A stretch of 33,959 nucleotides of DNA from Spirochaetaceae bacterium (lineage in GTDB: Bacteria > Spirochaetota > Spirochaetia > Treponematales > Breznakiellaceae). The stretch spans positions 1 through 33,959 of the forward strand of contig JAISCK010000061.1 in assembly GCA_031265635.1 (NCBI GenBank), read 5' to 3'. The notes below the pieces were generated by a model. It was not told the DNA's origin and ran no database searches. It saw nothing but the letters and a program-made list of their open reading frames with translations. Of the stretch, positions 6,250 through 13,554 are shown one piece after another; the first letter of the stretch is position 1; every line of letters starts with the position of its first letter. A program made the translations under genes and the position numbers.

Positions 6250-7908
6250 TTATAGGGAATTCACCCTGCCGGGACCGGCCGGGTCATCCAGTTTGGCCAT
6301 ACACTGGCCCATATAGGCAAGGGTGGCGCCGTCTTCCGGGAGAAGTTCCAGGACCTTGCGGAAGTTCAGCAGGGCTTCCGAGTATTTCTTTTTTCTGAAA
6401 CTCATCATCCCTTCCTCAAAGAAGCGGTTCGCCTTCATCTTGAGTTCAAGGATGTCGGGAGTTACGGCGTCGAGTATTTCGTAGAAAGGTATGGGCGTAC
6501 TCTTGCCCCGCAGCTTTACCGCGCCGAGATAGCGGTACATATACGCGCCCGGATTTTCAAGCTGCTTAAAGGTATCTCCGGAAATAACCAGCGATACATT
6601 GTAGGCCTTGCACATGCCCTCGATGCGGCTCGCCAGGTTTACCGCGTCGGAAATAACCGTACTCTGCATGCGGTCCTCGACGCCCACAACGCCTATCATA
6701 AGGGGGCCCGTATGTATGCCTATGCCCATGGAAAGGGGCCTGTAGCCCATATTTGCCCGGTGGCCGTTGTATTCAAGTATCTTTTTCTGAATCTCTATGG
6801 CCGAGCGCACGGCCTGGTCCGCGCCGTTGTTCTGGGGAAAGAGGGCCATGATGGCGTCGCCTATGTACTTGTCCACAAAGCCCCCGTTCGCGCTGATAAT
6901 GGGAACAATGCGGGAAAGATAGGAATTGATGAATTTGAAACTCTCCTCGGTGGAGAGGTTTTCCATCAGGGCTGAAAACTGCCTGATGTCGGAAAAGAAA
7001 ATGGTCATCTCTTTTTCAACATGGTCCCCCAGTTTAAGGTCGGCGACGGAGACACGGTTCAATATTTTAAGAAAGGCCTGGGGTACAAAGGGACTGTACT
7101 CATCGGAATCCTCAGGGGTGATTTTCTTTTCCTTGTCGTCAAAATCCAGGGGCATTTCAATCGCGTCTTCGGCAAGGGGCGCGGCAAGAGGCTCGGCGGG
7201 GGAAAACGCGGCGTCAGGCGCGGCGTCAGGTACCGCGTCAGGCACGGCGTCCGGCTTCTGGTTGTAAGAACCTTTAAGGTCAAGGCAGTTCCACAGAAAC
7301 CATGACATGGTCCAGAACAGGACGCCTAAAAGGGTATAGCCTGAAAGAAGGGAAAGGCCGGTAAAGAATATACATACCGAAAGATAGATATAGCTTGGCC
7401 CCGGTTTTTTCCGCCCTCCCCTGTACCGGTACTGGCGAAACAGGGCAAGGAAAAGTTCGCAGCCAAGGGCCGCCGCGGCAAAGCCGTTGACCGGCCTCCC
7501 GGAAAGCAGGACCGCCGGAAAGGGAACGATGCTTAAAAAAACAAGAAGCGCGTTTTCTTTCCGCGAGGCTCCCCTCCCCCCGAGATGCCAGGAAAGCAGG
7601 TTAAATGAACAAAGAAAAAACAGAAACAGGCCGGTAAAACAAAATAGGGAACCCAGGCCGGTAAAGCCAAAAAAGGCGGCAAAAAAACCAAGGACCGCGA
7701 CAAACTGGGCGGCCGCGCTGATAATCCTCAGCCGGCCGGCGGCCTTTCCGGCAGCGGGCCGGGAGGAAATTCCCCGGCGGAACAGGCAGGCGGCGGAAAG
7801 CAGCAGCAGCCCGGCAAGGCAGCCCAGGAAAAAAGTACGGGCCCCTTCAACATTTATATCCGCGGCGCGGGAAATCCAGGCAATAGTATAGATCCCTTGG
7901 TTTTTCAT
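6250..7908 (-). CDS. Membrane-anchored class III adenylate/guanylate cyclase with C-terminal TPR
   Basis: Several N-terminal hydrophobic segments; catalytic domain TIFFSDIRQFSALMENLSTEE...GGFVDKYIGDAIMALFP; TPR-like C-terminus (YSEALLNFRKVLELLPEDGATLAYMGQC). Confidence 0.92.
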   Translation of the reverse strand: MKNQGIYTIAWISRAADINVEGARTFFLGCLAGLLLLSAACLFRRGISSRPAAGKAAGRLRIISAAAQFVAVLGFFAAFFGFTGLGSLFCFTGLFLFFLCSFNLLSWHLGGRGASRKENALLVFLSIVPFPAVLLSGRPVNGFAAAALGCELFLALFRQYRYRGGRKKPGPSYIYLSVCIFFTGLSLLSGYTLLGVLFWTMSWFLWNCLDLKGSYNQKPDAVPDAVPDAAPDAAFSPAEPLAAPLAEDAIEMPLDFDDKEKKITPEDSDEYSPFVPQAFLKILNRVSVADLKLGDHVEKEMTIFFSDIRQFSALMENLSTEESFKFINSYLSRIVPIISANGGFVDKYIGDAIMALFPQNNGADQAVRSAIEIQKKILEYNGHRANMGYRPLSMGIGIHTGPLMIGVVGVEDRMQSTVISDAVNLASRIEGMCKAYNVSLVISGDTFKQLENPGAYMYRYLGAVKLRGKSTPIPFYEILDAVTPDILELKMKANRFFEEGMMSFRKKKYSEALLNFRKVLELLPEDGATLAYMGQCMAKLDDPAGPGRVNSL

Positions 7909-8074: not shown

Positions 8075-10636
8075 ATGGACAGCACAGGATTTTTCACCGG
8101 CCCCCTTGCGGACGGACAGCTTTACCTGGAACGGCAGCGGATAAACAACCTCCTGGACAAGGCCGTTCACCGCCCTATAATTACTGTTGTCGCCGGGGCC
8201 GGATACGGAAAAACCCGCGCCGTGCACTCGTTTGTTCACAAGAAAGGAATCCCGGTTACCTGGATGCTCCTTACCGAGCGGGACAATATAGCCGAGCGCT
8301 TCTGGGAAGACCTTACGGCGGCCGTGGGGATGCTCCACTACGACACGGGCCTTGCCATGGGCGCCGTTGAATTCCCCCCGGCGGAACGGCAGTTTATCAA
8401 CTACCTGCGTATCCACCTCCAGAATCTGGGACGCGACAGAAAGCACGTGCTTGTTTTTGACGATGTACACCTCATTCATAACAAGGAAATACTCCGCTTT
8501 ATTGAACACTGCGCCACGGCGGCCTTTTCCGGCGTTACCGCCGTACTCATCTCCCGCACCGGCCTGCCCATCAACCTCATGGCCTATGAGTCAAAGGGCC
8601 TTATCACCGCCATAACTGAAGAAGAACTCCGGTTCAGCCGGGCGGAAATGCTTGAATATTTTTATATCCAGAACATACGGCCCGGTCCCGGAACAGCCGA
8701 TTCCATTTACCGGGATACCGAAGGCTGGGCCTTTGCCATATACCTGGCCGCCCAGACCCTGCGGCGCCAGGCCCCGGAAACCCAGTACATACCCCGGGCC
8801 TTCAAGTCCAATGTGTGGCGGCTTATCGAGAGCGAAATCATGGCCGAAATACAGATGCCCCTGCGGCAGTTCCTCATCAAACTTGTGTTTCTGGAGCGGC
8901 ACCCCGAAGAACTTCTCTCCGAGATAGGAGACTCAAGCCTCATTGCCGCCCTGGAAAAAATCGGCTCCTTCATACGCCTCGATTCCTATACCGGGTCCTA
9001 TCAGATTCATCCGCTGCTTCTTGAATACCTGGGAAGCCTCAGCGGGGAACTTTCACCGGAGGAAAAAAAGGACGTGTGGCTCAAGGCCGCGCGGTGGTGC
9101 GCCGCCAACAGGCAGAAGATAAACGCCATTCATTATTATGAAAAAGCGGGAAACTACAACGAAATCATCGCCATGATGTATACGGAGTTTACGCCCCTCA
9201 TCCCCGCCGCCAGCGCCAGGCCCCTCCTCGCCATTATGGAAAGGACGCCCAGGCGGGTCTACGGGGAAAATCCCGAACTGTACCTGATACGGGCATGGCT
9301 GTATACCTCCATGGAGATGCTGGAAAAGGCGGAGGAGGAACTTTCCGTCGTCATTTCCTCGCTGGAAGAGCGGCCCCCCTGCCCCCGGGTACACCAGATA
9401 CTGTCCGGCTGTTATATCAACCTGGGCTTTGTCCGCGTGCTCGCGGGCACCTATACCGGGGATTACGATTATATTTCAAATTTTGAAAAAGCCGCTTTTC
9501 ACGCCCAATACCGCGAGCGGGATTTTTCCCCTCCCCTCACCGTGGCTTCCCTTGGGTCCTATATATGCAGGGTTAATTCGGCGGAAAAAGGGGAGATGGA
9601 ACGGTACATAGAAGCTCTCGCAAAAACCATACCCCATCTTGAAAGCGCCCTGGGAGGCTGCCGTTACGGCATGGACGACCTTGCCCGGGGGGAACTGGCT
9701 TTTTTCAGATCGGACCTGTACCGGGCCGAAGAATGCCTGCTCACCGCGGCGGTCAAGGCGCGGCGGAAAAACCAGTACGAAATCGAAAACAGGGCCCTGT
9801 TTTACCTCATGCGGGTATACCTTAACCGGGGGAACAGCCGGGAACTTTCCCGGCTCAGGGAACAGTTTCTCGCCCAGCTTGACAAGGAAGATTTTGTAAA
9901 CCGCTACACCTGTTTTGACATCACCACAAGCTGGTTTTATATACAGATAGGCCGCCTGGCCGCCTGGCTCAAAAACGACCTTGAGAAAAGCGACCTCAAT
10001 TCCATGGCCTACGGCCCCGGACTCCTGGTCAAGGCCAAATACCATTTTGCCGCGCGGGAATACCCGGCCGCCCTGGCGGTTCTCCAGAGCGGGGAAAACA
10101 GATTCGGCCCCAGGGCCTATAATCTGGGGAGAATCGAAATAAAAGTCCTTGAGGCCCTGTGCCGGTACAGACTGGGCGACCAAGAAGAGAGTTTTTCCGC
10201 TCTGGAAGAAGCCTGGGAAGAAGCGCGGCCCAACGGTTTTTATATGCCCTTTACCGAACAGGGCAAAGACATGCGGGCCCTCACCGGCGCCATGCTGAAA
10301 TCAGGCTCCGCGCGGATAAACAAAAAAACCCTTGAACGCCTACACTTTTCCGCATCGGCCTACGCGAAACGCCTGGTCATCGTCATGAAAGAATACCGGT
10401 TTCTGGATAACCGGCGGAGCGCGGTCCCCTCGGAATCCCTTTCCTACCAGGAACTTTCGGTCCTCAAAAGCCTCTCCCAGGGACTCGCCAGGGAAGAAAT
10501 CGCCGTGGAAGGGGATATCTCCATCAATACCGTAAAAAGCGTCATCAAAAGCATCTACAACAAACTCGGCGCCATGAACCGGGCCGACGCCGTGCGCATA
10601 GCCACGAATTCCGGCTTTCTTGAACGGGAAGCATAG
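8075..10636 (+). CDS. MalT-like LuxR family ATP-dependent transcriptional regulator (STAND-type)
   Basis: Walker A VVAGAGYGKTRA, Walker B HVLVFDDVHLI, TPR-like middle, C-terminal LuxR HTH (LSYQELSVLKSLSQGLAREEIAVEGDISINTVKSVIKSIYNKLGAMNRADAVRIA). Confidence 0.93.
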   Translation: MDSTGFFTGPLADGQLYLERQRINNLLDKAVHRPIITVVAGAGYGKTRAVHSFVHKKGIPVTWMLLTERDNIAERFWEDLTAAVGMLHYDTGLAMGAVEFPPAERQFINYLRIHLQNLGRDRKHVLVFDDVHLIHNKEILRFIEHCATAAFSGVTAVLISRTGLPINLMAYESKGLITAITEEELRFSRAEMLEYFYIQNIRPGPGTADSIYRDTEGWAFAIYLAAQTLRRQAPETQYIPRAFKSNVWRLIESEIMAEIQMPLRQFLIKLVFLERHPEELLSEIGDSSLIAALEKIGSFIRLDSYTGSYQIHPLLLEYLGSLSGELSPEEKKDVWLKAARWCAANRQKINAIHYYEKAGNYNEIIAMMYTEFTPLIPAASARPLLAIMERTPRRVYGENPELYLIRAWLYTSMEMLEKAEEELSVVISSLEERPPCPRVHQILSGCYINLGFVRVLAGTYTGDYDYISNFEKAAFHAQYRERDFSPPLTVASLGSYICRVNSAEKGEMERYIEALAKTIPHLESALGGCRYGMDDLARGELAFFRSDLYRAEECLLTAAVKARRKNQYEIENRALFYLMRVYLNRGNSRELSRLREQFLAQLDKEDFVNRYTCFDITTSWFYIQIGRLAAWLKNDLEKSDLNSMAYGPGLLVKAKYHFAAREYPAALAVLQSGENRFGPRAYNLGRIEIKVLEALCRYRLGDQEESFSALEEAWEEARPNGFYMPFTEQGKDMRALTGAMLKSGSARINKKTLERLHFSASAYAKRLVIVMKEYRFLDNRRSAVPSESLSYQELSVLKSLSQGLAREEIAVEGDISINTVKSVIKSIYNKLGAMNRADAVRIATNSGFLEREA

Positions 10637-10670
10637 AACCGGCCTAAACGGTTGTATGGTGAACTTGCTG

Positions 10671-10698
10671 TTGACAAAGGCGCATACGGTGCTACAAT
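10671..10698 (+). promoter_or_regulatory. Sigma-70-like promoter
   Basis: TTGACA (10671-10676), 16-bp spacer, TACAAT (10693-10698). Confidence 0.6.
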
Positions 10699-10709
10699 TT
10701 TCAGAAAGC

Positions 10710-11102
10710 ATGAAAAAAATCATTATGCTCTGTATGGTCTTTTTTCTATTCTTCGCGGCATGTGAAATAACAGAAGAAAGGAGCCCAAAATCACGCACCA
10801 TAAAATATGAAGTTACCGGCGCCGGCTTAACGGTAGATATAACCATGAGAAATTCCGGACTAAGCACCAAATATCTTTATGATGAAATTCTTCCTGAGTC
10901 TGGGTCTTGGTCTGAATCATTTACTGTTAAGGGTTACAGGGATGATCTTTTTGAGGCGTATATTTCCGCCAAAAATAAAAATCATCCATCAGGAACAGTA
11001 ACGGTAAGCATCTCTGTAGATGGTACCCGTGTCGAAACAACCAGTTCTGCGGCAGACGGTATTGCCACCGCCTCTTACGATATTTACTTCCCAATGTTTT
11101 AG
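10710..11102 (+). CDS. Small lipoprotein with MmpS-like C-terminal domain
   Basis: Signal peptide and lipobox (MKKIIMLCMVFFLFFAAC); YEVTG...VDITMRN...SWSESFTVKG...AYISAKNKNHPSGTVTVSISVDGTRVETTSSAADGIATASYDI resembles the MmpS family pattern. Confidence 0.65.
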   Translation: MKKIIMLCMVFFLFFAACEITEERSPKSRTIKYEVTGAGLTVDITMRNSGLSTKYLYDEILPESGSWSESFTVKGYRDDLFEAYISAKNKNHPSGTVTVSISVDGTRVETTSSAADGIATASYDIYFPMF

Positions 11103-11375
11103 CCTGATTACGGCAAAGTAGCGGCCGGCCGCCCCATAAACATACCCCCGAATTTGGTTATTCCTATCCCCGAACCCCTCCTCAAAGGGGATAAAACCAG
11201 GTACTTCTCGATAGAAGTCAAGGGAACCTCCATGACTAAGGCCGGAATTAAGGACGGCGACTTTATTGTCATGCGCCGGGCCGAAGAGCCGGAAGACGGG
11301 AGCGGAAAGACTATTGAAGTTGATTCCTCTGACTACGAAATTCAGGGGGAATTCGTGAAACTGAGGGTGGGCTAG
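11103..11375 (+). pseudogene. Remnant of an S24/LexA-type repressor: C-terminal peptidase domain only, with internal deletion
   Basis: Frame read from 11103: PDYGKVAAGRPINIPPNLVIPIPEPLLKGDKTRYFSIEVKGTSMTKAGIKDGDFIVMRRAEEPEDG|SGKTIEVDSSDYEIQGEFVKLRVG*. Ala-Gly cleavage motif and catalytic-Ser motif (GTSM) present; HTH and the segment carrying the catalytic Lys absent. Confidence 0.75.
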
Positions 11376-11402
11376 GCTGAACCAAAAACCCCATAATGTT
11401 CA

Positions 11403-11434
11403 CAAAAAGTCAAAATAGTGCCAAAAAGTCAAAA
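11403..11434. repeat. Two 13-bp direct repeats CAAAAAGTCAAAA, 19-bp period
   Basis: Copies at 11403-11415 and 11422-11434, immediately upstream of the promoter/inverted repeat. Confidence 0.7.
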
Positions 11435-11450
11435 ATTAGTAAAAAAGAGC

Positions 11451-11495
11451 TTGTCTTTTGTGAATATTTGAGTATAATGGACTATACTCAAATAT
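11451..11495 (+). promoter_or_regulatory. Promoter with -10 inside a perfect 13-bp inverted repeat (putative operator)
   Basis: TTGTCT (11451-11456), 16 bp, TATAAT (11473-11478); inverted repeat ATATTTGAGTATA (11464-11476) - ATGGAC - TATACTCAAATAT (11483-11495). Confidence 0.7.
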
Positions 11496-11557
11496 AGATA
11501 AGATAGACCGCGATGTGATTAATAGCCCGTTGCTTTATTTAGGAAGGGGGCAAATAC

Positions 11558-11758
11558 ATGGCTTATGAAAGAAAAATCGACCTTATGGATAAATCGCTTT
11601 TTCCAACGGTTTCTCTTTATGCGCAGAAAAAGAATCCCAAAGAGTCTATAACCACGGATGTCCGCCGGGTAGAACAGACTAATGATGAAATCATCGAATT
11701 TGTTGCTAACGAAATGTCTGGAACCCTGGGGGATAGCCGTGGCCCTAAAGCTAACTGA
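11558..11758 (+). CDS. Small hypothetical protein (66 aa), first ORF of the accessory cassette
   Basis: Strong upstream AGGAAGGGGG; downstream of the inverted-repeat promoter; no family recognised. Confidence 0.55.
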   Translation: MAYERKIDLMDKSLFPTVSLYAQKKNPKESITTDVRRVEQTNDEIIEFVANEMSGTLGDSRGPKAN

Positions 11759-12161
11759 TATTGTCTTAAAGGATTTTATTTATAAGCAAAACCCTGATTA
11801 TTCATATATATTTAATCCTGACGGAAGTCTCCAGTCTAATGACAGAAATGAGATTATCGATACTTTCTTATCAGTTTTGAAACAAATTTATACGACTATT
11901 ATTGCTGATGCTAAAATCAATCCGGGGAGGATAGAGTGTAATGAATATCTTCTTGCTCAGGCTCTTGCCCGGTACTCCCGTGATATTTTTGGTGAGTTGC
12001 GTCTTTCGGGTAAAATCGAACATTTACAAATTCTTGGGGTTCTAACAGAAACACAAAAGAATCAGCTTGCCCAATTTTCCGATTACGGATTAAAAATAGA
12101 TTCATGCAGTCCATATATCCATAGACAACTGGCCGCTCTTTTGTATTGGCTTGCGTATTAA
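11739..12161 (+). CDS. Hypothetical protein (GTG start proposed), overlaps the preceding ORF by 20 nt
   Basis: GTG at 11739 preceded by GGGGGA; VALKLTDIVLKDFIYKQNPDYSYIFNPDGSLQ...; may instead be a frameshifted part of a larger gene. Confidence 0.5.
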   Translation: MALKLTDIVLKDFIYKQNPDYSYIFNPDGSLQSNDRNEIIDTFLSVLKQIYTTIIADAKINPGRIECNEYLLAQALARYSRDIFGELRLSGKIEHLQILGVLTETQKNQLAQFSDYGLKIDSCSPYIHRQLAALLYWLAY

Positions 12162-12409
12162 AACCATTTGCCATTTATCCCGATAGAAATAACCCCATAA
12201 GGGAGCTAGGTGTTGCTTTTGAATTTCATAATGAATATGTATCCTACCTCCTCTGTCTTTCATCCTTGAAAGTGTTTAATTATTATCTCGATATACATAA
12301 AAGCAGAGATAGTTTTTACGATTTTCTTTATGATTTGCATTTCCGAAGTCTTTCAAGATCATCGCTTGAATTTTTCCTGGGGGAACACATGAAGGAAATA
12401 TCCTCCTGA
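12146..12409 (+). CDS. Hypothetical ORF, TTG start or -1 frameshifted continuation of the preceding ORF
   Basis: Coding-like sequence VLKPFAIYPDRNNPIRELGVAFEFHNEYVSYLLCLSSLKVFNYYLDIHK; no ATG start, overlaps the upstream ORF by 16 nt in the -1 frame. Confidence 0.45.
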   Translation: MACVLKPFAIYPDRNNPIRELGVAFEFHNEYVSYLLCLSSLKVFNYYLDIHKSRDSFYDFLYDLHFRSLSRSSLEFFLGEHMKEISS

Positions 12410-12483
12410 CAACGGAAGTATGTCATGCCTGTAGTGGCGGGAAAGGTTAGCTGAGAAATTTTTATAGAAAAGGAGTGAACGCT

Positions 12484-13341
12484 ATGAACATACCAGCCAA
12501 GTTTGCCAAAAGGATCAATGAAAATCTCAAAAAATATCAGGGAGTTATTGCCCAAATCAAGAAAAAAGATGCTAATGAATCTGATACTGTTACCGTGATA
12601 ACCGATATGCTGCAAGATATTTTCGGGTATGATAAATACGCCGACATAACATCCGAATACGCTATCAGGGGGACCTATTGCGATTTGGCGATTCTCGATA
12701 GCCATAAAAAGATAAAATTTCTTATTGAAGTTAAAGCTATTTCCGTTGTCTTAAACGATAGTCATATAAAACAGGCCCTGGATTACGGCGCAAACGCGGG
12801 TGTGAACTGGGTATTATTAACCAACGCCGAAACATGGATGCTTTATAAAATCAAATTCGGAAAACCGATTGACAAAGAACTTATATCGGAATTCAATCTG
12901 TTGACGATTAATTCCAAAACAGATAAAGAGCTTGAAGCGCTCTTTGTAATTAGTAAGGATGGGCAGGAAAAATCAAGCATAGAGGATTTCTATTCAAATA
13001 TTCAGGTAAAGAATAAATTCATAATAGGATGCCTGTTAAATAGCCCAGATGTTTATGTGTTAATTCGCAGAACAATGAAGAAATTATTTGACGATGTAAA
13101 AATCAGCGAACAGGAAATCGCGGACATTATCATGAACGATATTATCAAAAGAGAAATAATAGATTCTGAGGAATCAAAAAAAGCAAAAAAAGATATTGAT
13201 AAAATATACAAAAAATTGGAACGGGTAAAAGAAAAAAGCAGCACGGCGCCTCAAGACAATGAGATTTCCAAACCGGAAGAAATACCGGATACCCAGGTTC
13301 AGCAAGATGTTGTTGAAAAAGACAGCGAGACAAACGGATAG
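12484..13341 (+). CDS. Solitary HsdR N-terminal-like PD-(D/E)XK nuclease domain protein
   Basis: RBS AGGAG 8 nt before ATG 12484; ...AIRGTYCDLAILDSHKKIKFLIEVKAI...HIKQALDYGANAGVNWVLLTN (D...ExK plus QxxxY) typical of type I restriction R-subunit N-terminal domains; charged C-terminal tail, no helicase domain. Confidence 0.8.
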   Translation: MNIPAKFAKRINENLKKYQGVIAQIKKKDANESDTVTVITDMLQDIFGYDKYADITSEYAIRGTYCDLAILDSHKKIKFLIEVKAISVVLNDSHIKQALDYGANAGVNWVLLTNAETWMLYKIKFGKPIDKELISEFNLLTINSKTDKELEALFVISKDGQEKSSIEDFYSNIQVKNKFIIGCLLNSPDVYVLIRRTMKKLFDDVKISEQEIADIIMNDIIKREIIDSEESKKAKKDIDKIYKKLERVKEKSSTAPQDNEISKPEEIPDTQVQQDVVEKDSETNG

Positions 13342-13481
13342 AGAAAGCCAAGAAGAAGCTGGAGCAGGGGGAATAATGCTAAATTACGATACTTTTTTGA
13401 AAAAAGCCAAAAACAGCCCAAACCCGCTTGACTCGCCGTTTTTTTTATGGTATGTATAGATGCGTCAATATAATGACTTAC

Positions 13482-13554
13482 GCCACCTTAGCTCAGTTGG
13501 TAGAGCAAAGGACTGAAAATCCTTGTGTCTAGAGTTCGATTCTCTGAGGTGGCA
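13482..13554 (+). tRNA. tRNA-Phe (anticodon GAA)
   Basis: Full cloverleaf: GCCACCT/AGGTGGC acceptor, GCTC/GAGC D stem, AAGGA-CTGAAAA-TCCTT anticodon arm, TTCGATT T loop, discriminator A (CCA not encoded). Confidence 0.97.

Follow-up and report, generated by a model that had tools for sequence, protein, structure and literature searches.

A recurrent gene pair, possibly toxin-antitoxin-like or defensive, in an AT-rich patchwork beside tRNA-Phe of a spirochaete

Does the AT-rich stretch that lies between a MalT-like regulator gene and tRNA-Phe in this spirochaete hold a single acquired defence operon, or do its genes belong to units that have little to do with one another? The initial annotation favoured the operon, in which three overlapping open reading frames of unknown family would act together with the nuclease that follows them. 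We looked at this stretch within its window, i.e. the whole 33,959 nt of DNA analysed here, which constitutes contig C25 (the assembly totals 1.98 Mb in 257 contigs and is 72% complete), and followed its genes into related and distant bacteria. The answer that emerges is of two units: a small gene A and a larger gene B, found side by side in spirochaetes and beyond, and a nuclease gene that apparently became their neighbour by chance.

A patchwork in a variable spot

The borders of the island are those first proposed: a MalT/LuxR-like regulator gene (8075-10636) lies upstream and tRNA-Phe (13482-13554, forward strand) downstream, the next gene beyond the tRNA encoding a radical-SAM-type protein. 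Within this interval the G+C content falls to 0.34-0.39; across 11558-13341 it is 0.369, as opposed to a mean of 0.552 (sd 0.017, minimum 0.498) in 552 segments of matching length taken from beyond the island, and at third codon positions A, B and the nuclease gene have a G+C content of 0.30-0.41 where the flanking genes have 0.63-0.68. Both the AT-richness and the deviating codon usage that had been reported are therefore real, and so is the broken S24 repressor: a truncated, decayed Peptidase_S24/LexA-like fragment is encoded at 11154-11375 on the forward strand (E=7e-8, covering only positions 22-68 of the 116 in the profile). What does not hold is the homogeneity of the island, as this fragment is host-like in composition (G+C 0.51, GC3 0.62), unlike its AT-rich neighbours A, B and the nuclease gene; it is for this reason that we describe the island as a patchwork. 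A putative lipoprotein gene at 10710-11102 is also AT-rich (G+C 0.41), has no match above curated cut-offs, and is preceded by a strong promoter-like sequence (TTGACA-16-TACAAT, 10671-10698). Elsewhere in the window, a short 12-nt tandem repeat of 3.9 copies, CGGCGTCAGGCA, occupies 7209-7255.

The patchwork sits in a variable spot, at least on its near side. In a second genome of the host genus (G036), the MalT-like gene is 84% identical; behind it come a gene with a Panacea/SocA domain (E=5e-15) and another small, unassigned gene, with neither A-B nor the nuclease at this locus; since other genes follow the MalT-like gene in G036, the near side of the spot varies, which agrees with the earlier suggestion of horizontal acquisition at a variable site for the MalT side only, the G036 contig ending before the tRNA. 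The G036 genes are of interest in themselves (L073:3678-4413): the gene behind the one with the Panacea/SocA antitoxin domain has no Pfam match at an E-value of 0.001, is cut by the contig end, and is a candidate toxin partner.

Two genes, one of them split, and a separate nuclease

Gene A (ORF1, 66 aa) occupies 11558-11758 on the forward strand and is the small partner that precedes B in most relatives. Gene B (11739-12409, forward strand; about 225 aa) overlaps A by 20 nt and is split in the window into ORF2 (11739-12161) and ORF3 (to 12409) by a one-base frameshift near 12150-12160. When the host's family was searched with ORF2, the open frames of its relatives measured mostly 206-265 aa, and the relatives' loci revealed an intact B of about 230 aa behind an A gene of 60-80 aa. 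Profile A1, built from B, matches the window twice, with positions 4-138 at 11748-12158 and positions 137-219 at 12152-12397, in two different frames; as both pieces match one family profile, ORF2 and ORF3 are the halves of B. We are confident that the three overlapping ORFs announced at the outset amount to two genes, and that these are not tied to the nuclease. The suspicion that they could be decayed fragments of a common non-defence gene is right as regards the fragments, ORF2 and ORF3 being one gene, but not as regards the gene, B being an accessory gene without a known family.

Across the family, A measures 60-100 aa and B, which is probably mostly helical, 140-240 aa. Aligned A proteins share a near-invariant P (conserved at 92%) within an [N/M]-P-N-like motif, which reads N-P-K in the window; the family-wide alignment of B retains Y, D, W, P (100%), N (100%), E and R, giving signatures of Y..D, YW..K.KP, NE and R for B and of P-N for A. 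B is under strong purifying selection, with pN at 0.13-0.31 and pS near saturation at 0.73-0.86. Comparison with the copy at L115 gave pN values of 0.25 and 0.27 for the halves of B in the window, synonymous sites being saturated, and because the two values are about equal the break is either recent or an error of assembly. Would the latter, as a mere assembly or sequencing error in a genome as fragmented as this one, leave the module of the window intact? The equal preservation of both halves speaks for it, whereas the break lies outside any long homopolymer, and other copies of the family are broken at other places, with in-frame stops in G573 and G087 and a frameshift in G243:C21; we regard an artefact as possible, if doubtful. 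Judged from its reading frames, and unless the shift is such an error, the window's A-B copy is probably inactive. A programmed frameshift was considered and dropped, as the breaks of other copies lie elsewhere in the gene and B is whole in close relatives.

Upstream of A lies an operator-like dyad (11464-11495) with 15-nt arms and at most one mismatch, which overlaps the -10 element of a sigma-70-like promoter (TTGTCT-16-TATAAT, 11451-11478, forward strand; a consensus match only). The inverted-repeat promoter of the initial annotation therefore stands as to its repeat, with an arm length reached by none of 500 mononucleotide shuffles of 11376-11557, but less so as to its promoter, promoter-like sites as such being no commoner than chance would have it (6 observed, 8.3 expected). 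Some relatives have an inverted repeat upstream of A and others do not, and no recognised DNA-binding domain was found in A. One locus, L021 of genome G051, carries an inverted repeat with 29-nt arms about 100 nt before the start of A, far longer than at other loci; a small mobile repeat or a fold-back introduced in assembly could account for it.

The gene at 12475-13341 (forward strand) encodes a stand-alone PD-(D/E)XK nuclease of 288 aa; that a solitary restriction-type nuclease lies here had been recognised at the outset. It carries an HSDR_N_2 domain (E=4e-9), matches phrog_17239 over its full length (3e-73), and is 41% identical to a 'restriction endonuclease' of Thermus phage Riverbug, whilst its closest named relatives are found in Treponema MAGs, in keeping with a host lineage of the termite-gut Treponema type. 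The residues D70, E85-x-K87 and Q100 are intact, and do not vary among nine sequences drawn from several phyla. The predicted model (pLDDT 76.9) has a restriction-endonuclease-like fold, its best, though weak, structural matches being the restriction enzymes DrdV and BpuSI. It is no Type I restriction-modification system, as the protein has no helicase part and no hsdM or hsdS was seen nearby. Several relatives within the host's family adjoin genes for a CI-like repressor and a tyrosine integrase (L003/L025, L005), and an integrase is also present at L024 and L026. The nuclease gene is a separate one, its product probably active, and in relatives integrative elements often carry it.

Could A, B and this nuclease nonetheless form a single defence system, acquired as one operon at 11558-13341? 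They share a strand and a similarly low G+C content, and only 65 nt separate B from the nuclease gene. However, an HSDR_N_2 nuclease was seen beside A-B at no other locus, and both families are widespread separately; one further genome of the host's family (G040) holds the two, on different contigs and at a frequency near chance expectation. The proposed joint operon was rejected because A-B and the nuclease are spread separately, and we consider a single system highly improbable.

A pair on the move

Where else, then, does A-B occur? Of 200 genomes from the host's family, 18 carry B, and they are spread over 12 of 57 genera; the remaining three of the host genus, all incomplete, yielded no B. 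It is rare in the rest of the phylum, where a small family carries several divergent A-B pairs, two of them adjoining a gene that reads as ilvC-like; genome G299 holds a remote pair with a PtuA-like AAA ATPase gene downstream (L050), and G499 a weak B match that contains a stop. With a wider profile (A4), B was detected in 16 of 399 genomes (~4%) of the Pseudomonadota, the phylum of the Luteimonas locus L028, the weakest matches (E near 1e-4) being provisional. In these matches an A-like gene often adjoins B, sometimes downstream, and the order is B then A at three Pseudomonadota loci and at L167. On plasmid p5 of Azospirillum lipoferum 4B, both genes are annotated as hypothetical proteins and overlap by 4 nt; this was the only plasmid matched, and scans and searches of viral contigs and phages returned no B. 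As a two-gene unit the pair is thus conserved not only in termite Treponema and other spirochaetes but also in Pseudomonadota and on an Azospirillum plasmid, most of the loci coming from metagenome-assembled genomes. A B-like gene in two tandem copies was also noted at L160 (4912-6615, genome G760).

Almost every locus has different neighbours. These include, by sequence reading, adk, gnd, malQ/htpG, transketolase and motB, with the neighbours in Pseudomonadota mostly judged by eye, and most copies in termite Treponema sit between core genes, outside defence islands. Elsewhere, an Mrr endonuclease gene lies near A-B (L136/L162), a CRISPR array with a 66-nt period begins about 0.2 kb downstream (L173), and genes for a Mu-like head protease and a terminase small subunit are found within a few kb (L163, L165). 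The G+C content of A-B is 0.34-0.43 across 13 measured loci and clearly under both 1-kb flanks in 9 of them; the exceptions are L021, below the only flank measured, L013, slightly below one flank, and the window and L017, each with one flank that is AT-rich too. Of 22 regions surrounding further matches to A-B or B, none contains a tRNA gene, nor does tRNA-Phe stand beside the radical-SAM-type gene in any of the 22 relatives checked; the tRNA neighbourhood, to which the initial annotation had drawn attention, is not characteristic of the pair. Considering also that no att-like repeat of the 3' end of tRNA-Phe was found elsewhere in the window, tRNA-linked integration of A-B is unsupported.

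Two of the sites lie among RNA polymerase genes. In G146, A-B stands between rpoB and rpoC (L043:6281-7106), with the start of A 10 nt past the stop of rpoB, and the end of B 3 nt short of rpoC. The same spacer is without A-B in eight relatives, where it measures 9 to 120 nt (9 nt in G074, of the same genus as G146; G002 was left out, the end of its rpoB not having been identified). In G609, whose RpoC is 50% identical to that of G146, the pair lies between rpoC and rpsL in the order B-A (L167:5203-6101). These insertions, in two phyla, amount to a striking 2 of about 42 loci but were noticed post hoc. With the unoccupied spacers of the relatives for comparison, the rpoB-rpoC insertion shows clearly that an accessory cassette has been placed within an essential operon.

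What the pair may be, and how it compares with known systems

As far as the libraries searched can tell, the module is undescribed, as had been proposed. B has no significant family match in Pfam, PADLOC or PHROGs and none by sequence in the PDB; the A and B pieces of the window, the only ones searched there, have none in NCBIfam. A fold model of the 5' piece of the window's B, made without an alignment (mean pLDDT 61.5), has no match in the PDB either, and a literature search that was not specific to the family found no paper on A-B. Neither did A resemble a known antitoxin, or B a known toxin family, in the libraries searched. Two particular assignments were tried and set aside. The R-x4-6-H motif of HEPN toxins is absent from the window's B and its close relatives, and of the members outside Treponema only some (L123 and L136, for instance) contain an R-x4-H-like stretch; as for the ABC-three-component (ABC-3C) systems, the match of A to middle component 5 is not significant (E=0.17; 12.1 bits, where the cut-off is 25), and among the loci read only L050 has an ATPase beside the pair.

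We posit that A-B could be a new toxin-antitoxin-like or defence cassette, decayed in the window, a reading to which the sequence comparisons would lead us to give about half our belief. It draws on the recurrent pairing, the scattered spread over unrelated sites, the AT-richness, the purifying selection on B and its repeated breakage, as well as on the defence and phage genes near some copies and the Panacea gene that G036 has at the spot of the island; against a toxin-antitoxin role stand the want of homology to any toxin or antitoxin, the occasional B-A order, the sites among core genes and the inconstant dyad. In such a cassette, A would hold B in check by direct contact, perhaps via its conserved P-N motif, until infection or the loss of A frees B, and the released B would harm either the cell or the invading phage. 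The A-B complex could also repress its own transcription by way of the window's operator-like dyad, which lies across the promoter.

Two other readings have to be weighed. A-B could be a cassette that propagates itself without benefit to the host, or an accessory regulator tied to transcription, rather than a toxin or defence pair: both the clean rpoB-rpoC insertion and the B-A copy between rpoC and rpsL invite this idea, and no mobility gene is recognisable in A-B. On the other hand, the other ~40 loci lie away from rpo genes, and repeated breakage speaks against an essential regulatory role, so that we find it unlikely. The second reading concerns the origin of the island, and is compatible with a toxin-antitoxin or defence function of its genes. 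tRNA genes are common integration sites, and the island might be what is left of a prophage or integrative element at tRNA-Phe, with the S24 fragment as a remnant, A-B and the nuclease gene as cargo and the integrase lost. The repressors and integrases beside relatives of the nuclease gene point this way, as do the phage genes near some remote A-B copies; yet the window holds no integrase, in addition to having no repeat of the tRNA end, the S24 fragment is host-like where A-B and the nuclease gene are not, and the far boundary lies beyond the comparison with G036. We think this origin rather improbable, though a little less so than a purely self-propagating or regulatory pair.

Returning to the toxin-antitoxin or defence reading, it can be taken further. 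A-B would then be the first described member of a large, as yet unnamed superfamily of two-gene modules, anti-phage or toxin-antitoxin in nature and with a new helical effector, that has spread across phyla and can lodge within essential operons (rpoB-rpoC being one), there to be co-expressed with RNA polymerase. This is a tentative proposal, and one that we would sooner doubt than adopt. If the toxin-antitoxin or defence reading is right, a widespread accessory gene pair has gone unnoticed in the standard libraries of families on account of the short length and rapid divergence of its members; the profile built here makes the family searchable.

How, finally, do these genes compare with known systems? 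The nuclease shares with HSDR_N_2/phrog_17239 proteins a match over its full length, their conserved residues and a predicted fold, and differs from HsdR itself by having neither the helicase part nor hsdM or hsdS beside it. The pair at L050, with a PtuA-like AAA ATPase gene downstream, recalls Septu and other ATPase-based or three-component systems; it differs from them in that no other A-B locus read has the ATPase. The nearest likeness is to the Type II toxin-antitoxin systems, from which A-B differs by matching no known toxin or antitoxin, by the absence of a known toxin fold in the larger gene and of a recognised DNA-binding domain in A, and by its sometimes reversed gene order. Nevertheless, like those systems, Panacea/SocA-type pairs (Panacea: PMC8832971) included, A-B is a conserved unit of two short genes that lie close together or overlap, occur sporadically and change sites. 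A-B too turns up in phage and defence contexts, and it is a Panacea gene that fills the same spot in the host-genus genome G036.
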